Of a stretch of DNA of 33,387 nucleotides, positions 3,760-13,425 are shown one piece after another. The first letter of the stretch is position 1, and the number at the start of each line of letters is the position of its first letter. Origin of the DNA: Geobacteraceae bacterium GWC2_53_11 (GTDB lineage Bacteria; Desulfobacterota; Desulfuromonadia; Geobacterales; Pseudopelobacteraceae); NCBI GenBank assembly GCA_001802645.1, contig MGZJ01000003.1, forward strand, positions 29,254-62,640, read 5' to 3'. A program made the position numbers and the translations under genes. The notes beneath the pieces were generated by a model that saw only the letters and a program-made list of their open reading frames with translations, was not told the DNA's origin and did not search any database.

Positions 3760-4226
3760 TATTTAAGCACCTTCAGCAGGTTGACAGCTTCGATAACGGT
3801 CATTGCCGCATCAAAGCCCTTGTTGCCCGCCTTGGTTCCGGCACGCTCAACCGCCTGCTCAATAGTATCGGTCGTGAGGACACCGAACGCGATGGGGATA
3901 CCGCTTTCCAGAGAGACGCCAGCGACCCCTTTGGAAACCTCGGAAGCAACATAATCGAAATGCGGCGTCGAACCGCGAATAACGGCACCGAGGCAGATCA
4001 GGGCATCGTACTTGCCCGATTCGGCCATTTTCTTGGCAAAGAGTGGAATTTCAAACGCACCCGGCACACGGGCGACGTGGATATTCTTGTCATCGGCACC
4101 GTGGCGGATAAGCGCATCGACAGCCCCTTCCAACAGACGTTCGCAGATGAAACTGTTGAAACGGCTGACAACAATACCGATCTTCTGCCCCTTTGCTTCA
4201 AGCTTACCTTCATAAAATTGCGGCAT
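3759..4226 (-). CDS. ribH: 6,7-dimethyl-8-ribityllumazine synthase
   Basis: This enzyme condenses ribityl-aminopyrimidine with dihydroxybutanone phosphate to form lumazine, the penultimate step of riboflavin synthesis, in a cytoplasmic icosahedral or pentameric assembly. Motifs seen: [12 protein letters not shown], the substrate loop [23 protein letters not shown] with the catalytic His, and [13 protein letters not shown] choose the start at 4226 (MPQFYEGKL, 155 aa) over an in-frame ATG at 4238. The sequence between them, GGAGGTCGTC, is a strong ribosome binding site for the downstream ATG. It is the first gene of the ribH-nusB-hom-trpB2-trpF run. The other rib genes that often precede ribH are absent, replaced by an accessory gene on the opposite strand. 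Confidence 0.96.
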
Positions 4227-4450
4227 GACGACCTCCATGGTTTGGAAAAAAGGAAACGGGATATTAGCATATTTTTTGCGGGTGGGGAGAGAAAAAATAG
4301 CCGTGAGAACGAGCAGTGCTGACGTGCATGAAATTATGCCCCGGATGCTTTAATGAGGAGGGTTTGCGGTGGTTATTTCGAAAATGGTGTGATAAATACG
4401 TACAGCACTTCAATCGGGATAAGCTGTTCGAAAACATAGGAGCTGCGACA

Positions 4451-5305
4451 ATGACCCGTGAAACTGCGATAAAATTGTTCGAATCAAAAACGATTCGTTC
4501 CGTGTGGAACGACAAAGACCAAAAATGGTATTTCTCCGTTGCCGACGTAGTTGAGGCACTGACCGACTCCGTCAATGTAAAAGACTATATCAAGAAAATG
4601 CGGAAACGGGATTCTGAGCTCAACTCCAACTGGGGGACATTTTGTCCCCCCCTTGAACTTGTTGCCCCTGATGGCAAGAAGCGTAAGACACAATGTGCCA
4701 ATGCTGAAGGGCTCCTCCGCATCATCCAGTCCATTCCCTCTCCCAAGGCCGAACCGTTCAAACGCTGGCTGGCGCAGGTTGGCTACGAGCGACTGGAAGA
4801 GATAGAGAACCCGGAATTGGCGGCCAAACGGATGCGGGAGTTGTACCGTGCCAAGGGGTACAGCGACGAGTGGATCGAAAAGCGGGTGCGCGGCATTGCC
4901 ATCCGGGACGAACTGACCAACGAATGGAAGAAACGCGGGGTAAAGGAGCAGGTGGAGTATTCAATCCTGACCGCCGAGATTAGCCGGGCTACCTTTGGCA
5001 TGACACCGACCGAGTACAAGGAGTTCAAGGGATTGGAGAAGCAAAAGGACAACCTGCGGGATCACATGACCGATCTGGAGTTGATCTTCACCATGCTGGG
5101 AGAAGCCTCCACCACCGAGATCGCCCGGAATCGCGATGCCCAGGAATTCGAGGAGAATCTGGATGCTGCCGTGGCAGGCGGTACTGTGGCCGGCAATGCG
5201 AGAAAAGATCTGGAGCAGAAGTCAGGAAAGCGGGTATCAACGCGGGAGAATTTCAAGGAGATACCTGAAGCGAAGAAGCGGAAGATTGCTGTGTCCAAGG
5301 GATAA
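4451..5305 (+). CDS. Bro-N domain (phage antirepressor-like) protein
   Basis: A 284-residue protein of unknown cellular role. The N-terminal ~100 residues resemble the Bro-N/antirepressor DNA-binding domain: an initial FESKTIRSVWND strand pair, YFSVADVVEALTDS, VKDYIKKMRKRD, then a basic GKKRKTQCANAEGLLRII. The remainder is charged and helical, with a conserved-looking AGGTVAGNARKDLEQKSGK near the end. Start chosen at 4451 because AGGAG lies 8 nt upstream. The frame is open to 4316, so a longer N-terminus is possible. Related proteins occur on phages and as chromosomal orphans. No other phage genes are visible here. A perfect inverted repeat lies 20 nt downstream. The family assignment is moderate and the function is not known. 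Confidence 0.75.
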   Translation: MTRETAIKLFESKTIRSVWNDKDQKWYFSVADVVEALTDSVNVKDYIKKMRKRDSELNSNWGTFCPPLELVAPDGKKRKTQCANAEGLLRIIQSIPSPKAEPFKRWLAQVGYERLEEIENPELAAKRMRELYRAKGYSDEWIEKRVRGIAIRDELTNEWKKRGVKEQVEYSILTAEISRATFGMTPTEYKEFKGLEKQKDNLRDHMTDLELIFTMLGEASTTEIARNRDAQEFEENLDAAVAGGTVAGNARKDLEQKSGKRVSTRENFKEIPEAKKRKIAVSKG

Positions 5306-5325
5306 ATGTTCTATTTGGGAGGATC

Positions 5326-5355
5326 ACCGGTTCACGCGCACGCGCGTGAACCGGT
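5326..5355. repeat. Perfect 14-bp inverted repeat after the Bro-N gene
   Basis: ACCGGTTCACGCGC, a 2-nt centre (AC), then its exact reverse complement. It starts 20 nt after the Bro-N stop. There is no T-tract on either side, so it is not a textbook intrinsic terminator. The near-perfect dyad could be a protein-binding site, a recombination site, or a stem that blocks exonuclease. The function is not established. Confidence 0.85.
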
Positions 5356-5394
5356 CAATACTGAGTTGGTCTAAAAAAGGATATTGAAACTCTC

Positions 5395-5730
5395 ATGGAA
5401 AATAAAACCTCAACAATAGTCATAGTCAATGTGGTCATATTTCTCTTGTACCTTAAGTTCGGCATAATGGCCTTGTGGGTGCCTGCTGCTGCAGGATTTG
5501 GTCTTATTTGCGTTTATATATTTATGGATTTGATAATGCAGTTATATTTCGTTGAATTTTACAACACCAAATTTACACCTGCTATCAGAAGAATTACTGG
5601 AGATAAGTTAAATTTGACGAGTATGTCTTCCGAGCAAAGAACAATAATAAGAAAAGGATTTTTGCCTACCATCATTCTTTTGGCCGCTATTTTGTTTGGG
5701 ATTAGCAGAGTGATAATGCGCTATCAGTAA
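5395..5730 (+). CDS. Small hypothetical membrane protein, AT-rich
   Basis: A 111-residue protein I do not recognise. It has a hydrophobic segment at about residues 8-23, a second at about 27-50, a polar middle (about 55-88, with a basic ITGDKLN region), and a third hydrophobic segment at about 90-106. Two or three transmembrane helices are likely. The only ribosome-binding-like sequence is AAAAGGA about 13 nt before the ATG, which is weak. The region is visibly richer in A/T than the flanking genes, which fits recent acquisition with the adjacent Bro-N gene. It may be real, but I cannot give it a function. Confidence 0.6.
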   Translation: MENKTSTIVIVNVVIFLLYLKFGIMALWVPAAAGFGLICVYIFMDLIMQLYFVEFYNTKFTPAIRRITGDKLNLTSMSSEQRTIIRKGFLPTIILLAAILFGISRVIMRYQ

Positions 5731-5747
5731 GGCGAAGACCAACCATC

Positions 5748-5774
5748 GGCAACAGCGGTCAAGCCGCTGGTGCC
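5748..5774. terminator. Hairpin between convergent genes
   Basis: GGCA-A-CAGCGG-TCAAG-CCGCTG-G-TGCC forms an 11-position stem with one internal mismatch. It lies between the convergent stops at 5730 and 5788. It lacks a clear T-run, so it may be a weak or factor-assisted terminator, or only a 3'-end-stabilising stem. Confidence 0.45.
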
Positions 5775-5787
5775 TCAGCCCCGTTAT

Positions 5788-6783
5788 TTACCCCAACCTC
5801 AACGCCGAAAAAATCATCTTCCAGACCACAATCACCGTAAACAGCAGATAACAGACCAGCGTCACGGAAGCCAAGCGGCGCTGCGTAACCGGAATTATGC
5901 GAACCAGACTACCAACCTGACGGAACGGCATCAGTACGCCGACGCCTAAGCCCGCCACCGCGCCGCCGGACAGGGTGGCGTACAGCACGTAGCCGACATA
6001 TCCGTACCCCGCTTGCAGCAGACAGAACGGGCAGTGATGGGTGGGAAGTTCGTAGAAATAGAGGCAGATGAACGAGAGCACCGACGCGATGGCAATCAGG
6101 AAGGTTGCGAAGGCGAATGACGAGAAGAAATAGCCGCCACGCCCCTTGAGATAAAACCATACTCCGCTGACAGCGGTGAGCGCCATGCCGGAGAAGAAGG
6201 CGATCTGCATCGGCCGATGCGGCAGGGCCGCGAGATCGCCGCTGAAGCCGCCCCCTTCGTGGCTGAACAGACTGCCGCAGCAGGAGGTGATTATGTCCGG
6301 CTTTATCCCGGCAAAGTAGGCCACGAGCAGAACCGCCTCCAGCAGGAGCAGCGGCGCCACCACGTTGAGCAGCTCGTATTTGACCTTGATCAGCGGATAA
6401 TCGTAGCCGCGGTTATCCACATGGTTGACGATCAGCCAGACTCCGGCCAGCAGGAAGTTGACGATCTTGAGCAGCAGCGCGGGATAGCCGAAAGAGTTGA
6501 CCGCCAGGGTTCCGGCGGCGCACATGGCACCGGTAAAGAGGGTGTGCAGATCGTCGGCGGTGTAGATGAAGAGGAACAGCGACATGAGCTCGAAACCAAG
6601 GACGTAGTTCATGATGGTGGAGATCAGGTAGGTCCTCCGCTCCAGTTCCAGCTGCCCTTCACTGCCGCTGGCCGGATCCCAGCGTTTGAGAATGCGCACC
6701 CCGTAATAACCGGCATAGATCCCCAGACCGGAGACCAGCAGTGCAATCAGCACCAGGGCCAGGGCGGCAGGCTGGAGAATCAC
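5788..6783 (-). CDS. Polytopic membrane protein with CCGS and HHCPFC motifs
   Basis: A 331-residue integral membrane protein with about eight hydrophobic helices (for example near residues 5-25, 55-77, 103-122, 138-159, 192-211, 219-244, 258-285 and 306-328). Two cysteine clusters stand out: TSCCGSLFSH (Cys168/169), probably in a loop, and YELPTHHCPFCLL (His249, His250, Cys251, Cys254) at a helix boundary. They suggest metal binding or thiol redox. The second is loosely reminiscent of the CxxC of VKOR/DsbB-type proteins, but I cannot assign it to that family. The start overlaps the ATPase gene by 4 nt (ATGA), so it is the last gene of the NosL-ABC operon. No function is assigned. A role as metal- or redox-handling partner of the transporter is inference. 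Confidence 0.85.
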   Translation of the reverse strand: MILQPAALALVLIALLVSGLGIYAGYYGVRILKRWDPASGSEGQLELERRTYLISTIMNYVLGFELMSLFLFIYTADDLHTLFTGAMCAAGTLAVNSFGYPALLLKIVNFLLAGVWLIVNHVDNRGYDYPLIKVKYELLNVVAPLLLLEAVLLVAYFAGIKPDIITSCCGSLFSHEGGGFSGDLAALPHRPMQIAFFSGMALTAVSGVWFYLKGRGGYFFSSFAFATFLIAIASVLSFICLYFYELPTHHCPFCLLQAGYGYVGYVLYATLSGGAVAGLGVGVLMPFRQVGSLVRIIPVTQRRLASVTLVCYLLFTVIVVWKMIFSALRLG

Positions 6784-7508
6784 CGGCAGCTCCGGCTGGC
6801 AATCACCGCGCCGTCGCGCATCTCCACCAGCGTATCGATCAGCGGCGAATCATAGACAATCGGGTCGTGGCTGGCGATCAGCACGCTCTTCCCCTCCCCT
6901 TTCAACCGGCCGACAATCTCCATGAACTCCTGCGACAGCTTCGAATCAAGATGCGCCGTCGGCTCGTCGGCAATGATGATGGCAGGGTTGTTGATCAGGG
7001 CGCGGGCAATGGCAACACGCTGCAGCTCTCCCCCCGACAGCAGCTCCACCCTTTGTCCGGCATGGCGGGCGATGTTGAACTGTTCCAGCAGCCCTTCTGC
7101 CCGGCCGCGAAAGTCAGTGCGCCCCTCGCCGGTCGGATAGGCGGGGAGCATGACATTCTCCAGCACGGAAATCCCTTTGATCAGGTTGAACTGCTGGAAG
7201 ACAAAACCGAAGGTGGAACGGCGAATTTCATTAAGGAACCGCTCCGGCAGGCTGGTGATTTCGAGAGAATCGGCCCCCTCCTGCTGGAACGGAACCGCCG
7301 CCGCTATGTCATGCAGGAAAATCCGCCCCGAAGTCGGCCGGGCCATGCAGCCGATCATGGTCAGCAGCGAGGTTTTACCTGAGCCGCTCGGCCCCTTGAA
7401 CACCGTGATCTGCCGGGGGTTGACGGTGAGGGTGACGTCGGCCACGGCGGTGAATTGGTTCGACAGGCCGCTGTTGAATGTTTTGGTGATGCCGGACAGT
7501 TCTATCAC
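6780..7508 (-). CDS. ABC transporter ATPase, LolD/MacB type
   Basis: A 242-residue nucleotide-binding subunit. Walker A is GPSGSGKTSLL, the Q-loop region is FVFQQFNLIKGISVLENV, the signature is LLSGGELQRVAIARAL, and Walker B is IIIADEPTAHLD, followed by an H-loop in LIASHDP. The pattern matches the LolD/MacB/FtsE-type ATPases that work with FtsX-like permeases in extraction or mechanotransmission at the inner membrane. The start is GTG at 7508, with GAGGAAC about 6 nt upstream, 1 nt after the permease stop. Its immediate partner is the upstream FtsX-type permease. The substrate is unknown. The neighbouring NosL proteins point to a metal- or cofactor-related envelope process. Confidence 0.95.
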   Translation of the reverse strand: MIELSGITKTFNSGLSNQFTAVADVTLTVNPRQITVFKGPSGSGKTSLLTMIGCMARPTSGRIFLHDIAAAVPFQQEGADSLEITSLPERFLNEIRRSTFGFVFQQFNLIKGISVLENVMLPAYPTGEGRTDFRGRAEGLLEQFNIARHAGQRVELLSGGELQRVAIARALINNPAIIIADEPTAHLDSKLSQEFMEIVGRLKGEGKSVLIASHDPIVYDSPLIDTLVEMRDGAVIASRSCR

Positions 7509-7509
7509 G

Positions 7510-8646
7510 TCAGTTCCTCATGGCGGCATCGGGATCGGTCGTAGCCGCCCGCCAGCAGGGGATAATCGTCGCGGTCGTGTAGGGCACAACCGTCAGAAAG
7601 AAGAGCACCGTCAACTGGTAGGCATTAACCACCGGCACCAGCTGGAATCGGGGATAGATGACCGACCACCCCTTGAGCGCCTGGGCAAACAGGGGGGCTG
7701 ACAGAAAGAAGACATGCCCGTAGGCCAGCACGACTCCCAGCAGGAACGCCGTGAGCGAAATAACCGTTCCCTCCCAGAATTTGAGCAGCAGCACGTCGGA
7801 CGTTTCCCAGCCGATGGATTTCAAGATGCCGATTTCCTTGCGCTCCTCGGCGGACAGGCCGGTGGCCTTGTCCCAGGCGAAAATAATGAAAGAAAACAGC
7901 GCCGACGCCAGCACCATCAATGTCATGCCGCCGCGCCAATCGAAAATCGACTGGTAGGTGCGCTGGATTTCGCTCTTCAGGATCGGCCGGGAATCGGGGA
8001 ATTGAGCGGCAATCTTGGCCGCCACGGTCGCCAGTTCCTTCGGATTGCGCACGGTCACCGCCAGGTCGGTCGCCTGACCGGCCGGAAAACTGAACAGGCG
8101 ATGAAAGTCAGCCGCCGTGATGATAATCATGTCAGCCGAAATCAGGTCTGATTCGCTCGGGAAAATCGTGCCAATCTCCAGCATGAGCGGCGTTTTGTCA
8201 TAGCTGATGAGCGGCAGCAGATCGCCGACCGCCAGGTTGCGTTTCTTCGCAATCGCTGCGCCGATGGCGGCCTTCTCCGCTCCGGCTGCGGTCTCGTCAC
8301 TGGCCATGATCGTATAATTGGCACCGTTCAGCGCATCGTAATAATAGCCCCACAAGCGGGGATGCACCGCCGTCACCCCCCTAATTTTGGCAATTTCGTC
8401 GGCATAAGAGGCCGGCACCAGATCCTGCCGCCCGGCGGTCAGGCGTTGTACGACCATGTCGGGCGCATCGCTCAGAATGATGGCCGCCTCCCGTTTTAGG
8501 GCGGTGACAAAAAACTGCAGCGAGGCCAGCATGAAGATCACCAGCAGGTACATGGCCAGCAGGGAGAGGTTCTTGGCGCGGCGGCGCAGCAGCGAGGCCA
8601 GCGTGAAGTCCAGGATATTCAGATGACGTTCAAGAGCACGTTTCAT
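7510..8646 (-). CDS. FtsX/MacB-like ABC permease
   Basis: A 378-residue permease. It has one N-terminal membrane helix (about residues 25-50), a large periplasmic MacB_PCD-like domain (about 55-250), then three C-terminal helices (about 258-277, 305-328 and 345-370). The segment LSAEERKEIGILKSIGWETSDVL, between the second and third helices, is the typical FtsX-domain coupling region. This topology fits lipoprotein-release or MacB-type systems rather than classical importers. It overlaps the small secreted-protein gene by 4 nt upstream and is 1 nt from its ATPase downstream. No LolC/LolE-like partner permease is present, so it probably works as a homodimer. Confidence 0.92.
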   Translation of the reverse strand: MKRALERHLNILDFTLASLLRRRAKNLSLLAMYLLVIFMLASLQFFVTALKREAAIILSDAPDMVVQRLTAGRQDLVPASYADEIAKIRGVTAVHPRLWGYYYDALNGANYTIMASDETAAGAEKAAIGAAIAKKRNLAVGDLLPLISYDKTPLMLEIGTIFPSESDLISADMIIITAADFHRLFSFPAGQATDLAVTVRNPKELATVAAKIAAQFPDSRPILKSEIQRTYQSIFDWRGGMTLMVLASALFSFIIFAWDKATGLSAEERKEIGILKSIGWETSDVLLLKFWEGTVISLTAFLLGVVLAYGHVFFLSAPLFAQALKGWSVIYPRFQLVPVVNAYQLTVLFFLTVVPYTTATIIPCWRAATTDPDAAMRN

Positions 8647-8933
8647 GGGGCACCGTGACCGGTACGGGGCGGCAGGATCAACGAACCGGTAGGGAAATGT
8701 TCCAGCGCCAGGGGATGTTCCTGAAACGGCGCATGACGGTCGGCCATGGCCGGATGGCGGGTGTAGCGCGCCTCTGTCGCAAGACAGAGATCAGTCACCT
8801 GCAGGCGGCGCAGCTGGGCATTCTGCAACTTCACCTCACCACTCTGCTGGGCATGGCGGGCATGCAGCGGTAGCGCCAGGAACAGTGTCAGGCTTGCTGC
8901 GGTAAACAGGAGGAATTTCAGGGAACGCCGCAT
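8643..8933 (-). CDS. Small secreted His-rich protein in the NosL-ABC operon
   Basis: A 96-residue protein with a clear signal peptide (MRRSLKFLLF then a hydrophobic core, likely cleaved near Ala25). The mature part has one Cys (Cys50) and a run of histidines in RYTRHPAMADRHAPFQEHP and LEHFPTGSL. I do not recognise a family. Its position, with a 4-nt overlap into the permease and just after the NosL gene, says it belongs to the operon. The histidines make metal binding plausible, but that is inference. The ribosome binding site is weak (AGGAT about 14 nt upstream). Confidence 0.75.
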   Translation of the reverse strand: MRRSLKFLLFTAASLTLFLALPLHARHAQQSGEVKLQNAQLRRLQVTDLCLATEARYTRHPAMADRHAPFQEHPLALEHFPTGSLILPPRTGHGAP

Positions 8934-8948
8934 AGGAGAATACCGATC

Positions 8949-9422
8949 CTAGTTGAGTGATGAGACCGTCTGCCGGGTAATATCCTTGAAACGCAAAATA
9001 CGCCTGCCTTTATGATCGGTTTTAAATGCCGCCGCATCCTTTTCGTTATCAAACGGTATCAGCTCAAACCCCATCGGCCCGTAGACGTCACTGCCGATCA
9101 CAAACCAGGCAGCGCGGGCATCGATCATCTTCAGCGAGTAATACTCTTTCACGGAGAGCGCCGCGATATCGGCCTGACTCCTGCCGGGAGTATAGCGGGC
9201 AGTGTCGAAATAATGGCTGAACATGTCTTTTGGCCCGTCATAATAATAGGTGGTACCGTCCTTGAAACGGGCGGTTGCGGTCCAATCCGGGTATTTGGCA
9301 ACAAACATCCCGCAGACCGGGCATTTGGCTCCGGCAGGGGCGGCAGTTCCCTTGGCGGCGGCCAGGACGACCGCCGCAGTCAGCACAGTGACAAGAACGA
9401 CAGCCGTAATAATGCGTTTCAT
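8949..9422 (-). CDS. NosL-family exported metal-binding protein
   Basis: A 157-residue NosL-like protein. It has a signal peptide (about residues 1-22) followed by KCPVCGMFV (Cys34, Cys37, Met39), the characteristic NosL copper-binding motif, then the NosL fold (WTATARFKDGTTYYYDGPKDMF, SVKEYYSLKMIDARAAWFV, GPMGFELIPF). NosL is known as a copper chaperone for nitrous oxide reductase, but no nos genes are in this window. RBS AGGAG is present upstream of the ATG at 9422. It lies 17 nt after a second NosL-like gene and 15 nt before the His-rich small gene. Copper delivery to, or scavenging for, some other envelope enzyme is a reasonable inference. Confidence 0.9.
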   Translation of the reverse strand: MKRIITAVVLVTVLTAAVVLAAAKGTAAPAGAKCPVCGMFVAKYPDWTATARFKDGTTYYYDGPKDMFSHYFDTARYTPGRSQADIAALSVKEYYSLKMIDARAAWFVIGSDVYGPMGFELIPFDNEKDAAAFKTDHKGRRILRFKDITRQTVSSLN

Positions 9423-9439
9423 GGGAACTCCTGTCCGGA

Positions 9440-9952
9440 CTACTCTTTCTCGGCGATAGCCAACGCTTCTTTGTAGGTCGCTAACTGACCGCCGTTTTTC
9501 TTGATAAATGCGGCAGCGTCATCTTTTTTGGCAAACGCCCACTTTGCCACCCGCGTCATAACCCCGCGCTTGGTCCCGCCGATGGTCCAGGTCGCCTGTT
9601 CGGCATCAAGAAGTTTTTGGGTCTGCACATCGCCAACCTGTACCGTTTTGAGAGCCTTGGCCTTGCTTGCCTTTATTTCAGTTACGGCACAATGAAGGGA
9701 GCAGACGCCAACGACTGATCCGTCAGCATACGAGATCAACATACGGGAATGGGCGAACTTCCCCCGATCCATGCCGCAATGCGGGCAGGCTTTATGCTGT
9801 GCAACGTCGGCATGGCTTGATCCGGCAGAGACCCCGGCTTTCTGTTCATGGCCTGAATGGCCATCATGACCGGACATCGGGGCGGCAGAGACAGCCCCGC
9901 ACCCCAGAAGCAGAATTCCCGCAACATATGCCAGAACGGCTGTAATTTTCAT
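9440..9952 (-). CDS. NosL-like exported protein with His-rich N-terminus
   Basis: A 170-residue exported protein that opens the six-gene operon. An N-terminal signal (GILLLGCGAVSA) could be processed by signal peptidase I, or as a lipoprotein at Cys18. It is followed by a histidine-rich stretch, SGHDGHSGHEQ. The NosL-like core has ACPHCGMDRGKF (Cys56, Cys59), a second cysteine pair VCSLHC (Cys84, Cys88) and TWTIGGTKRGVMT. Start chosen at 9952 because AGGAGGGG lies 5 nt upstream. The frame is open further back but runs across the divergent rnr promoter and start. The extra His and Cys residues suggest a higher metal-binding capacity than its neighbour. Confidence 0.87.
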   Translation of the reverse strand: MKITAVLAYVAGILLLGCGAVSAAPMSGHDGHSGHEQKAGVSAGSSHADVAQHKACPHCGMDRGKFAHSRMLISYADGSVVGVCSLHCAVTEIKASKAKALKTVQVGDVQTQKLLDAEQATWTIGGTKRGVMTRVAKWAFAKKDDAAAFIKKNGGQLATYKEALAIAEKE

Positions 9953-9977
9953 ATTTCCCCTCCTTGTTAATTTTTTC

Positions 9978-10004
9978 ATATGGTACCATATCGCAAATAT
10001 GCGA
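9978..10004. promoter_or_regulatory. Abutting palindromes upstream of the NosL-ABC operon
   Basis: A perfect 14-bp palindrome ATATGGTACCATAT (9978-9991) abuts a second dyad, TCGCA-AATA-TGCGA (9991-10004). They lie 25-50 nt upstream of the first NosL-like gene, in the divergent space shared with rnr. Position and symmetry suggest operator sites for a dimeric regulator. The regulator is not identified. Confidence 0.5.
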
Positions 10005-10034
10005 ACTGCGCAACCATACCTGCCATAATCAGGG

Positions 10035-10063
10035 TTGACTTTGCCGGGCGTTGCCCCTAAACA
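10035..10063 (+). promoter_or_regulatory. Putative sigma-70 promoter for rnr
   Basis: TTGACT and TAAACA are separated by 17 nt, about 45 nt before the rnr start. The -35 is good and the -10 imperfect. It was read by eye only. Confidence 0.45.
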
Positions 10064-10106
10064 GTTTCTGAATGTATGAAGGTTGTGCGAGACAAGGAGC
10101 CGGCTT

Positions 10107-12506
10107 ATGAATCTCACAAAAAAACATATACTGGATTTTTTCAGACAGCGGGAGGGTGCCGTCCATTTGGACGTCCTGCTGCGCGAGTTCGGCGGTCGCC
10201 ACGTCAAACGCGAACTGAAAAACATGCTGGAGGACATGTCCGATGATGGCGAAGTGGTTCGCCTCAAAGGTAACAGCTACAGCCTGCCGGGAAAGATGAA
10301 AACGACCAGGGGCAGGGTTTCCGTCCACCGCGACGGCTACGGCTTTGTGACCCCCGAGGAAGGCGGCGAGGACATTTTTATCCCGTCCAAGCTGCTCAAA
10401 GGCGCACTCCACGGAGATCTGGTGGAAGCCAGTTCCGCGCCGAGCCGCATGGGGGGCAACAAGCTGGACGGGCGGGTTCTGGCGGTTATCGAGCGGGCAA
10501 CGTCCCGCATCGTTGGGCGCTATGAGGAGACCCGGCGCGGCGCGATTGTCATTCCCGAGGACCAACGCCTGAATCTGGTGGTGACGATTCCGGCCAAGGG
10601 ACGCGGCAAGGCGGAGGATGGCCATCAGGTGGTGGCCGAAATCACTTCGTACCCGATCGGCGGTCGCCCCGCCGAAGGAAAGGTTGTGGAGGTTCTTGGC
10701 TGGCCCGACGATCCTGAGGTTGAAGTTCAATCCGTTATTCGTCGCTTCGACCTGCCACATATCTTTGGCCCGGACGTTCTGGCCGAGGCTGAGGGGATCA
10801 GTGAAACAGTCTCCCTCGAAGACCTCAAGGGGCGCGTTGATCTCCGCACCATGCCGACCGTCACCATCGACGGCGAGACCGCGCGCGATTTTGACGATGC
10901 GGTTTCCCTCCGCCGCGAGGGAGACAGGTTCCGGCTCTGGGTCTCCATCGCCGACGTCTCCAACTACGTCAAGAAAGACAGTCCGCTCGATCGGGAAGCC
11001 TATCTGCGCGGCACCTCGGTGTACTTCCCGGACCGCTGCATTCCGATGCTGCCGGAACGGCTCTCGAACGGCATCTGCTCGCTCAACCCGCAGGTAGACC
11101 GCCTGACCATGACCGCCGAAATGCTCTTTGACCGGAGCGGCGACATGGTGGAATCGTCCTTCTACCCCAGCGTCATCAGAAGCGCCGCACGGCTGACCTA
11201 CACAATCGTGAAGCAGATTATCGTTGACGATGACCGCGACCTGGCCGACAAGTTCCGGCCGGTAGCGCCGATGCTGCTGGAGATGAAGGAGGTGGCCCTG
11301 ACCCTGATGGCGATGCGCAAGCAGCGGGGAAGCATCGATTTCGATCTGCCGGAGCCGGAGATCATCATCGGCCTGACCGGCCAGACCGAGGGGATCATCC
11401 GCGCCGAGCGCAACCTGGCGCATCAACTGATTGAGGAGTTCATGCTGGCCGCCAACGAGGCGGTGGCACGCTTCATCACCTCGCGAGACATCCCGTTCCT
11501 CTATCGGGTTCACGAGAACCCCGACCCGGCGAAACTGCACACGTTCCAGGAATTTGTGTTTGGCTTCGGCTATGAATTCAAACTGGTCGATGACAAGGTC
11601 AAGCCGTCCGAACTGCAGCGCCTGCTGGCACAAGCCGACGGCCGCATTGAAGAGCGGATGATCAACTACGCCCTGCTCCGCTGCATGAAGCAGGCGCGCT
11701 ACGCCGCCGAAAACGTCGGCCACTTCGGCCTGGCATCGGACTGCTACTGCCACTTCACCTCTCCCATCCGGCGCTATCCGGATCTGGTGGTGCACCGGAT
11801 TCTGAAGGCTGTTCTGGCTCTGCCTCCCTCCCCCTTGACGGGGGAGGGTCGGGGTGGGGGTGAAGGCGCCATAGCGGACAGCACGGCTAATGCCGGTCTC
11901 ACCCACCCCCTGGCCCCCTCCCGTCAAGGGAGGGGGAAACAGCTCCCCATCGCCCCCGAGCGACTGGGCGAAGTTGCCGAACACACCAGCAAACGCGAAC
12001 GGGTTGCCATGGAAGCCGAACGCGACGTGGTGGAGATGAAAAAACTGCAGTTCATGCAGAAGCATGTGGGAGAGGAGTTTAACGGTTACATCTCCGGAGT
12101 GACCGCCTTCGGCTTCTTCGTGGAACTGGAGGAACTCTTTGTGGAAGGTCTGGTGCATATCTCAACGCTGAGTGACGATCTGTACAGTTTTGCCGAAAAA
12201 CAGCACTCTTTGATCGGGCGGCGCACCGGCACGGTTTTCCGGATTGGCGATGCGGCACGAGTATCGGTGGCATCGGTCTCACCCGCCACGCGGCGGATTG
12301 AATTTATCCTTGCAGCACACACCGCTTCTCCCGCCGTCAAGACAGGCGCAATCCCGGCCGGATCGGAACAGTACCCCCGCATTCCGCTGCGCGGCAAGCG
12401 ACTATCCGGACTCCAGACGCGTGGCGATGGGCGGGAGCAAAACGGCAAAGGCGGCAAGGAGAGCAGACCCGGCAAAGGAAAGGGCGCTCCCCGCAAACGG
12501 CGCTGA
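10107..12506 (+). CDS. rnr: Ribonuclease R with an in-frame palindromic insertion
   Basis: A processive 3'-5' exoribonuclease that degrades structured RNA, here 799 residues. Order: N-terminal winged-helix region (about 1-65), cold-shock domains (about 70-220), RNB catalytic domain (DGETARDFDDAVSL near residue 255-268 supplies the metal-binding aspartates; FTSPIRRYPDL near 550), an S1 domain (about 655-740), and a basic Arg/Lys/Gly-rich tail. Start chosen at 10107 with AAGGAG 7 nt upstream; an upstream in-frame ATG lacks support. Between the end of the RNB core (VVHRILKAVL) and the helix LGEVAEHTSKRERVAMEAE, about 37 residues (roughly 574-610) are encoded by a palindromic repeat doublet. The frame stays open, and the site corresponds to a variable loop in other RNase R proteins. 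Confidence 0.96.
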   Translation: MNLTKKHILDFFRQREGAVHLDVLLREFGGRHVKRELKNMLEDMSDDGEVVRLKGNSYSLPGKMKTTRGRVSVHRDGYGFVTPEEGGEDIFIPSKLLKGALHGDLVEASSAPSRMGGNKLDGRVLAVIERATSRIVGRYEETRRGAIVIPEDQRLNLVVTIPAKGRGKAEDGHQVVAEITSYPIGGRPAEGKVVEVLGWPDDPEVEVQSVIRRFDLPHIFGPDVLAEAEGISETVSLEDLKGRVDLRTMPTVTIDGETARDFDDAVSLRREGDRFRLWVSIADVSNYVKKDSPLDREAYLRGTSVYFPDRCIPMLPERLSNGICSLNPQVDRLTMTAEMLFDRSGDMVESSFYPSVIRSAARLTYTIVKQIIVDDDRDLADKFRPVAPMLLEMKEVALTLMAMRKQRGSIDFDLPEPEIIIGLTGQTEGIIRAERNLAHQLIEEFMLAANEAVARFITSRDIPFLYRVHENPDPAKLHTFQEFVFGFGYEFKLVDDKVKPSELQRLLAQADGRIEERMINYALLRCMKQARYAAENVGHFGLASDCYCHFTSPIRRYPDLVVHRILKAVLALPPSPLTGEGRGGGEGAIADSTANAGLTHPLAPSRQGRGKQLPIAPERLGEVAEHTSKRERVAMEAERDVVEMKKLQFMQKHVGEEFNGYISGVTAFGFFVELEELFVEGLVHISTLSDDLYSFAEKQHSLIGRRTGTVFRIGDAARVSVASVSPATRRIEFILAAHTASPAVKTGAIPAGSEQYPRIPLRGKRLSGLQTRGDGREQNGKGGKESRPGKGKGAPRKRR
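11826..11936. repeat. REPIN-like inverted repeat doublet inside rnr
   Basis: Copy A is CCCTCCCCC-TTGAC-GGGGGAGGG (11826-11848) with a tail TCGGGGTGGGGGTG. Copy B (11914-11936) is CCCCCTCCC-GTCAA-GGGAGGGGG, preceded by CTCACCCACCCCCTGG. Copy B with its flank is the reverse complement in design of copy A with its tail. The two therefore form an inverted pair around a ~35-bp middle. The span is 111 bp, an exact multiple of three. The single copy at 1975-2006 is a relative. Confidence 0.85.
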
Positions 12507-12567
12507 ATACAATATAAATGGTAAATCCGGGTTGCAAGCCGGTATGCCACTGTGATAGGAAGGTTGC

Positions 12568-13425
12568 ATGACCGAGGAAAAAGAAAAAGTACTTCCCGTA
12601 ATTGAACATCTGGTTGAACTGCGCAAACGGCTGGTCGTTATCGTTGTTGCGGTGGTAATTGGTATGGGGGTGGCCTGGAACTTCTCCGGCGACCTTCTCA
12701 AATTCATCGAAAAGCCGTTGACCGGCAAGACGTATCTGACCGGGATAAAGAAGGATATTTATCTCAAAGTCAAAGAGCTTGCTCCCTCGATGTACACCCG
12801 TTACAAACTTGACCAGGAGATCAATGCACCCCAGAAACAGCGCCCCCTTAACTACAGTGCCCCCCTGGAACCGTTCTTCATCCAGTGCAAGGTCTCGATG
12901 CTGGCCGGCTTCGTCATGGTGCTGCCGATCGTGTTCTATCAGGTCTGGCTTTTCATCGCACCCGGCCTGACCCGGCGGGAGCGAAGAATGGTGGTCCCCT
13001 TCGTTGTTGCCGCTACGGTAACTTTTTGCATTGGCGCCATGTTTTTTCTGGTCATAATCTGGCCGGTGATCATCAATTTTTCGCTCTCGTATGAAGCAGA
13101 AGGGCTGCAAAGCTGGTTTAACATCAGTGCCTACGTCAATTTTTGCCTCCGGCTGATTCTGATGTTCGGCCTGATTTTCGAACTGCCGGTTCTGACGCTC
13201 GTGCTGGCCCGCTTCGGTATCGTAAGCTATTCTTTCCTGGCGCCTAAACGGAAGTACGCCCTGCTGGCCAGCTCTATCATAGCTGCTTTTCATGCGGATT
13301 TGATAACCATGTTTGTCATCATGATCCCCCTCTATCTCATGTACGAAATCAGCATCTGGGTAGCGTTGATCTTCGGCAAGAAGAAGATTACCATCGAAGA
13401 CGAGCTGCCTGGCCAGGCAACGTAA
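12568..13425 (+). CDS. tatC: Twin-arginine translocase subunit TatC (divergent)
   Basis: The multi-spanning core receptor of the Tat pathway that exports folded, twin-arginine-signal proteins. 285 residues. The N-terminus has the conserved VIEHLVELRKRL, then helix 1. After an enlarged first periplasmic loop comes SAPLEPFFIQCKVS, followed by FYQVWLFIAPGLTRRERRMV, FELPVLTLVL, and the last helices. Two oddities. The first periplasmic loop has about 35 extra, charged residues. The usual TPPD-like motif before the final helices reads AAFHAD, keeping the Asp but not the Pro-Pro. No tatA or tatB is adjacent. RBS AGGAAGG is close to the ATG. It may be a second, specialised TatC, but that cannot be shown here. 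Confidence 0.93.
   Translation: MTEEKEKVLPVIEHLVELRKRLVVIVVAVVIGMGVAWNFSGDLLKFIEKPLTGKTYLTGIKKDIYLKVKELAPSMYTRYKLDQEINAPQKQRPLNYSAPLEPFFIQCKVSMLAGFVMVLPIVFYQVWLFIAPGLTRRERRMVVPFVVAATVTFCIGAMFFLVIIWPVIINFSLSYEAEGLQSWFNISAYVNFCLRLILMFGLIFELPVLTLVLARFGIVSYSFLAPKRKYALLASSIIAAFHADLITMFVIMIPLYLMYEISIWVALIFGKKKITIEDELPGQAT

Follow-up and report, generated by a model that had tools for sequence, protein, structure and literature searches.

A six-gene NosL and FtsX-type ABC transporter operon in a Geobacteraceae genome as a candidate system for periplasmic Cu(I) handling

The window analyzed here, i.e. the whole stretch of 33,387 nucleotides (nt) taken from contig MGZJ01000003.1 of Geobacteraceae bacterium GWC2_53_11, contains at 5788–9952 (open reading frame coordinates) a run of six minus-strand genes. 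These encode two NosL-family proteins (NosL-A and NosL-B), a small protein (Hisp), a permease and an ATPase of an ATP-binding cassette (ABC) transporter, and a membrane protein that we call memb (Table 1); the operon and its relatives are referred to below as the module. From NosL-A to memb, the spacings are 17 nt, 15 nt, a 4-nt overlap, 1 nt, and another 4-nt overlap. A preliminary description of this DNA had proposed a compact operon with two NosL proteins and an FtsX-type permease with its ATPase, and all these features are borne out, with each of the four proteins scoring above its Pfam cut-off.

Table 1. Genes of the operon, in window coordinates. Pfam cut-offs are 24 bits for NosL (PF05573), 25 bits for ABC_tran, and 25.5 bits for FtsX.
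Gene or product	Position	Strand	Length and description
NosL-A	9440..9952	-	170 aa; NosL family; Pfam NosL 47.9 bits
NosL-B	8949..9422	-	157 aa; NosL family; Pfam NosL 105.9 bits
Hisp	8643..8933	-	96 aa; hydrophobic N-terminus, short conserved tail; no family
FtsX/LolC/MacB-type (type VII) ABC permease	7510..8646	-	378 aa; Pfam FtsX 28.3 bits
ABC ATPase, FtsE/LolD/MacB type	6780..7508	-	242 aa; Pfam ABC_tran 95.6 bits
memb, eight-helix membrane protein	5788..6783	-	331 aa; no Pfam/NCBIfam family; candidate Cu(I)-binding partner

NosL-A is a secreted NosL-family protein with CPHCGM near the start of the domain and a second motif, CSLHC; it ranks second among the matches to the NosL model in the genome. 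NosL-B carries CPVCGM at residues 34–39 and a second conserved Met, M117. Among 21 NosL-B sequences, C34, C37, G38, M39, and M117 are invariant, and the NosL-B profile retrieves solved NosL chains (7og7_A, E = 3.5e-16). The protein therefore holds the C-x-M copper motif of NosL (C37-G38-M39; PMC6530538) together with M117. NosL is known as a Cu(I) chaperone of the CuZ site (PMC6530538; PMC7558416).

The permease belongs to the Pfam FtsX family, and its profile retrieves YtrF, LolF, and LolC. In the structural model (predicted local distance difference test, pLDDT, 80.1; predicted template modeling score, pTM, 0.59), a helix at residues 23–59 is followed by a domain at 64–223 and by helices at 224–261, 282–325, and 342–369. 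This places a large extracytoplasmic domain between helices 1 and 2, as in type VII (MacB/LolCDE) transporters, and Foldseek matches to LolE (E = 6.5e-14), MacB (query TM-score, TMq, 0.66), and HrtB (TMq up to 0.53) assign the predicted structure to the LolCDE/MacB/HrtB-like fold type. Neither protein reaches the curated equivalog cut-offs for LolCDE, MacB, or FtsEX proper. Specifically, the permease scores 51.7 bits against NCBIfam LolCE (cut-off 362.45), and the best models for the ATPase are FtsE (150.9 bits, cut-off 264.85) and LolD (146.9 bits, cut-off 307.75), with all NCBIfam models listed for this protein far below cut-off. Type VII transporters are held to perform mechanical work at the far side of the membrane (review of MacB, PMC5985334).

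Hisp had been described as a His-rich peptide. The gene is real, but the description overstates its His content, as H79 alone is invariant among 21 sequences, with H24 and H60 nearly so. The same sequences share 14 invariant positions and keep TDL, A-x-Y-x-R, D, P, EHFP, G, and P, and the conserved tail reads TDLCLATEARYTRHP ... EHFPTGS. Hisp matches no named family in Pfam or NCBIfam, the only hit being a chance-level one to Pfam DUF3016 (E = 0.11). From this pattern of conservation, it looks like a small subunit rather than a carrier of many metals.

The sixth protein, memb, has no match to any Pfam or NCBIfam family at E ≤ 1. Its model consists of eight long helices (pLDDT 87.2, pTM 0.86) and finds no Foldseek match in the PDB at E ≤ 0.001. 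A further look at the fold returned four-helix bundles, cytochrome oxidase subunit III, CcmF, and receptors, each covering half of the model; the best Z of 11.8 is under what tells for helix bundles, and we make no use of these matches. The protein has three motifs, i.e. MC (87–88), CCGS (168–171), and HHCPFC (249–254). The latter two were noted in the preliminary description and both are present, but Asp replaces the last Cys of HHCPFC (C254) in 13 of the 89 relatives aligned. In a 90-row alignment, which excludes fragments of 200 aa or less and matches weaker than 1e-10, M87 and C88 are each kept in 89/89 rows, C168 in 89/90, C169 in 90/90, C251 in 89/89, and H249 in 87/89, while H250 is kept in 80 rows and C254 in 76. 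Met, Cys, and His are soft-metal ligands. The conserved residues sit in the loops that follow helices 2, 4, and 6; these loops contain on average 0.29, 1.31, and 0.71 Lys plus Arg, compared with 1.8, 3.02, 2.59, and 3.68 for the opposite loops. Basic loops face the cytoplasm under the positive-inside rule, and the conserved residues of memb are thus predicted to face the periplasm. With these ligands, memb is a candidate Cu(I)-binding protein.

A species-wide scan with memb, which picks up close relatives only, found 31 related loci in 29 genomes titled Geobacteraceae, other Desulfuromonadia, Desulfosarcina, Syntrophobacterales, Nitrospirae, Candidatus Magnetomicrobium, and one "Alphaproteobacteria" metagenome-assembled genome. 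A profile search of the phylum found memb in 57 of 395 genomes, some of them weak matches (down to E = 3.3e-7). The phylum sample used below comprises 60 loci; it excludes the host's own match and G212:C88, and one locus (L075) holds three matches (handles beginning with L, G, and C denote loci, genomes, and contigs). Several of the loci counted are cut by contig ends. The gene set recurs outside the strain beyond what chance would give, with all six families found together in 18/31 loci of the scan and 23/60 of the phylum sample. FtsX together with the ATPase lies beside memb in 27/31 loci of the scan and 53/60 of the phylum sample, and the Hisp label is present in 26/31 and 45/60, and any NosL label in 23/31 and 43/60. 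Of the 41 six-family loci, 40 have the genes in the order NosL-A, NosL-B, Hisp, FtsX, ATPase, memb; in the remaining one, L027, NosL-A and NosL-B have exchanged places. Carriage of the module by plasmids was considered and rejected, as memb has no tblastn match in 72,556 plasmid records.

The most frequent copper-related neighbor of the module is a CusA/CzcA-family pump. In 15 of the 57 genomes, such a pump is found on the contig of memb and no more than 8 kb from it, compared with 0.48 expected from 88 such pumps and the genome sizes, assuming independent genomes and uniform positions; pump counts per genome and coordinates for this expectation were entered by hand. The pump model, TIGR00914, spans both CusA and CzcA. 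The three Cu(I) methionines of CusA are kept in 16 of 17 near-full-length memb-linked pumps, a count that excludes partial pumps (L100, L102) and short duplicates (L044, L046); the exception is the pump of L112, which has none of the three. Two linked pumps that were tested score far better against CusA than against ZneA (1065.5 vs 614 bits, and 994.5 vs 490.2 bits). CusB-CusA genes stand upstream of NosL-A or NosL-B, on the strand of the module, in L071, L090, L093, L094, L096, L099, L107, and L110, and are oriented otherwise in L084, L086, L087, and L097. The label "CusA or CusB" is carried by 23/60 loci of the phylum sample and 3/31 of the scan, which is an upper bound given that the L112 pump lacks the methionines and that L068 and L088 were labeled on the CusB query alone.

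Other neighbors are rarer. A TonB receptor with an OprC label occurs in 3/31 loci of the scan and 2/60 of the phylum sample; for two receptors tested, the best model is TonB-copper (TIGR01778), with scores of 264 and 250.5 bits that are under the cut-off of 472.45. A Sco gene is found in 1/31 and 3/60 loci, and 4/31 have a kinase with an NtrC-type regulator.

The host genome has no true nosZ, its sole match to the NosZ model scoring 27.4 bits (cut-off 625) over model positions 519–572. It also has no real NosD, with three matches of 30–34 bits only, in one 832-aa frame on another contig, and the permease of the operon is of the FtsX type, not NosY. The absence of nosZ and nosD noted in the preliminary description extends to the host genome. 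Across the phylum sample, NosZ exceeds the cut-off in 4/395 genomes, and among genomes with memb this is the case for 2/57 of the phylum sample and 1/29 of the scan, i.e. the module is not always found beside nosZ. Beyond the phylum sample, the search for NosZ covered the 29 scan genomes and six memb genomes from the class of G230, in which memb is found in 7/42 genomes; three of these six have NosZ (G432, G433, and G437).

Co-occurrence of memb and NosZ was found in six genomes in total, and five of these have both on one strand, 2.5–11.4 kb apart. Specifically, the two genes share one contig and one strand in G050 and G230 (gaps of 11.4 and 9.5 kb) and in G432 and G437 (11.2 and 9.7 kb apart), while in the genome of L027 memb is followed at 2.5 kb by NosZ in the same orientation, and two Sco-like frames occupy the interval. 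In G433, which is a fragmented assembly, the two are on separate contigs. In G050, one strand carries nosZ, two small genes, nosD, an ATPase, nosL, an ABC-2 permease, and a thioredoxin-like gene, and continues with NosL-cytochrome c, NosL-B, NosL with an outer-membrane-type domain, Hisp, FtsX, ATPase, and memb. The overlap of NosZ and memb among the 395 genomes (2 vs 0.58 expected from totals) is not telling as a count; it is their nearness on one contig that is evidence. NosD is present in G050, G230, and the genome of L027, and it adjoins the module in G432 and G437.

Taken with the NosL pair and the ligands of memb, these neighbors make it very probable that the module concerns copper. The preliminary description had called it a self-contained envelope metal or redox system with no known role. 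An envelope metal system, compact and in a nosZ-free genome, agrees with our findings, whereas self-containment and the lack of a role do not, as relatives recur beside CusA-type pumps, a copper-type TonB receptor, Sco, and, in some lineages, nosZ in full nos clusters.

We give about even chances to a specific reading, in which the operon is an ATP-driven machine for handing over periplasmic Cu(I), analogous to NosDFYL. The FtsX-type permease and the ATPase would form a mechanotransmission (type VII) ABC complex, in which ATP used in the cytoplasm moves periplasmic parts and no ion is pumped through the membrane. This complex would be joined by memb, which would dock with it and offer a periplasm-facing soft-metal site (Met-Cys, Cys-Cys, His-His-Cys), and by Hisp as a small anchored subunit, while the NosL proteins would serve as Cu(I) carriers. 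Each ATP cycle would then open and close the memb site, and Cu(I) would pass among carrier, memb, and acceptor. The acceptor would vary by lineage, being the CusBA efflux pump in some and NosZ in nos clusters, and in the genome of the window it would be encoded elsewhere rather than adjacent. While the families, their order, the fold type of the permease, the conserved ligands, and the copper-related neighbors are observed in the present analysis, the binding of Cu(I) to memb, the assembly of the complex, its coupling to ATP, the direction of transfer, and the acceptor are inferred. We prefer such a hand-over station because it is the simplest reading that covers both efflux-linked and enzyme-linked loci. 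Its broader form is more tentative and falls somewhat short of an even chance: a mechanotransmission ABC transporter that serves Cu(I) specifically and, together with memb as a new Cu(I)-binding eight-helix family and Hisp as a new small subunit, loads NosL copper onto varied acceptors (CusBA, NosZ, and others) in Desulfobacterota, Nitrospirae, and further lineages.

Several observations weigh against the hand-over reading. The window's own locus has no adjoining copper gene, and the same is true of its nearest relatives; in our tree, the smallest starred set that encloses this locus comprises 18 rows, of which 16 are labeled "none" and 2 are receptor-linked. Neither a CusA nor a CusB label is found in 37/60 loci of the phylum sample, and no NosL label in 17/60 of these loci and 8/31 of the scan, which is partly owing to contig ends. 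NosL-A, the most often missing of the six families, is absent from some related loci (e.g. L007, L011, L014, L022, and L033). Acidic residues outnumber basic ones in the first cytoplasmic loop of memb, and the topology of this protein is therefore not beyond doubt. Several FtsX-type systems act on quite other substrates, such as lipoproteins, haem, and peptides. Finally, NosZ exceeds the cut-off in G264 and G379, which have no memb, and nosD is retained in the NosZ-linked genomes, where NosDFY thus needs no replacement by the module; such a replacement was considered for the genome of L027 and rejected given that NosD is present. Taken together, the retained nosD and the NosZ genomes without memb indicate that the module accompanies some nos clusters as an extra, without being a constant component of them or a substitute for NosDFY.

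Among the alternatives, copper detoxification alone survives best, although we hold it to be rather unlikely. Here the module would gather periplasmic Cu(I) and feed CusBA or a similar pump in place of CusF, with nosZ as a secondary recruitment. Linkage to Cus genes is indeed the commonest one, and several branches of the tree bear it: the Cus label needs 14 changes, at least 8 of them forced by starred branches, in a tree of 86 rows made by a quick method and with one very long branch (L068). These changes do not tell gain from loss, however. Moreover, the five genomes with the module on the nos strand and the four loci with a TonB copper-type receptor upstream (L015, L018, L020, and L082) fit copper supply as well.

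The same four loci can be read as copper supply alone, in which the module would be a NosDFYL-like assembly factor for a periplasmic cuproenzyme, fed by an outer-membrane copper receptor. This is in line with the role of NosL as an assembly chaperone in nos systems (PMC6530538), with the module lying in a nos cluster with Sco adjoining (L027), and with a NosL-NosDFY locus without NosZ that is already on record from Parageobacillus (PMC13068155). CusBA efflux genes are nevertheless the more frequent neighbors, and nos clusters with the module retain nosD. We consider supply alone to be improbable.

The vicinal CC and the CPxC motif of memb raise the question of thiol redox chemistry, i.e. a DsbB/VKOR-like, quinone-linked protein that keeps the Cys residues of NosL reduced or that reduces Cu(II), and a ResA/TlpA-like gene is found in 10/60 loci of the phylum sample and 1/31 of the scan. 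Yet memb matches no redox family of Pfam or NCBIfam (DsbB, VKOR, or CcdA type) at the threshold given above, the Asp that replaces the last Cys of CPFC in some relatives means that there is no strict CXXC, and the ABC pair is left unexplained; this makes the redox role very improbable. Haem or iron handling, like that of HrtBA or of Campylobacter P19-type clusters, has in its favor HrtB among the fold matches of the permease and a Cys-Pro pair in memb, and is the least probable of all, given the NosL pair and the copper-type neighbors throughout the linked loci.

Among known systems, NosDFYL is alike in combining a NosL Cu(I) carrier with an ABC transporter that acts on the periplasmic side, and the module sits within nos clusters in L057, L058, L118, and L120. 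It differs in that NosY is of the ABC-2 type and NosD is a beta-helix protein with no counterpart in the module, which adds memb and Hisp and occurs mostly in genomes without nosZ. The type VII systems LolCDE, MacAB, FtsEX, HrtBA, and BceAB share the permease fold and the ATPase type; by contrast, the module has a single permease gene with NosL, Hisp, and memb, and stays below the named NCBIfam cut-offs. CusCFBA is a frequent neighbor that keeps the CusA methionines, whereas the module has no resistance-nodulation-division pump of its own; by analogy, NosL could play the part of CusF. The Parageobacillus locus also pairs NosL with an ABC system in the absence of NosZ, but that system is of the true NosDFY type and not of the FtsX type (PMC13068155). 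Betaproteobacterial NosL clusters with N2O reductase (PMC6769254), unlike the operon of the window. We found no description of NosL with an FtsX-type ABC pair and memb in the literature searched by title and start of abstract, a search that has most subscription papers and all bioRxiv preprints outside its coverage. What would be new is the different transporter class and two unnamed protein families, while NosL-dependent, ABC-assisted copper handling is known.

Unusual NosL proteins and variants of the module are found among related loci. In the nos cluster of L057, one NosL domain is fused to a cytochrome c domain (10159–10911) and another to a Phenol_MetA_deg-type barrel domain (11500–12855). 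L118 encodes a protein with two NosL stretches (6304–7260), in a cluster where nosD and the module occur with CusA/CusB-like genes next to them. Directly before NosL-A, L018 (3221–3622) and L019 (3341–3766) encode a small Cys-rich protein with repeated CGC-x3-CDCG, which belongs to no Pfam family and is possibly a metal-binding protein. L069 and L070 represent a distant variant, with FtsX-ATPase-memb followed by a short protein that carries the NosL-A label without a Pfam match; the frames after it we take to be uroporphyrinogen-decarboxylase-like, and further along are a ResA-like gene, an efflux outer-membrane protein, and a CusB-like gene.

The NosL model finds four matches in the host genome, i.e. 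the two in the operon and two on contig C37. The latter contig (C37:13000-25278, L005) carries a second, different NosL/ABC locus at 4030–10812, with genes for a thioredoxin-like protein, NosL, a weak YtkA-like protein, two unnamed proteins, a MacB-type permease, an ATPase, and NosL; memb was not found in this locus. The two CusA/CzcA-family genes of the host lie on other contigs (C58 and C85), and the one at C85:27788–30892 carries one in-frame TAA stop. Downstream, the operon adjoins a plus-strand gene for a Bro-N domain protein (4316–5305, 54.5 bits) beside a 111-aa membrane-like frame (5395–5730), where most of the Geobacteraceae loci compared have other genes. Bro-N domain proteins are often phage-borne. 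Upstream, a perfect 14-bp palindrome, ATATGGTACCATAT, lies at 9978–9991, about 26 bp before the start of NosL-A. It is missing from the 17 related upstream stretches compared, which have no common palindrome among themselves, and a shared promoter or operator was rejected on these grounds.

If the hand-over reading is true, the operon represents a copper-handling machine that has hardly been described so far, and ATP-driven mechanical transfer of copper would exist outside NosDFY. NosL would then be a carrier in a wider periplasmic copper circuit, beyond its help to N2O reductase, and the module may contribute, as an additional factor, to the assembly of NosZ in some N2O reducers. The annotation "nitrous oxide reductase accessory protein" would then be no sign in itself of N2O reduction. 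For anaerobic metal-reducing bacteria, the operon would provide a testable gene set for periplasmic Cu(I) management.

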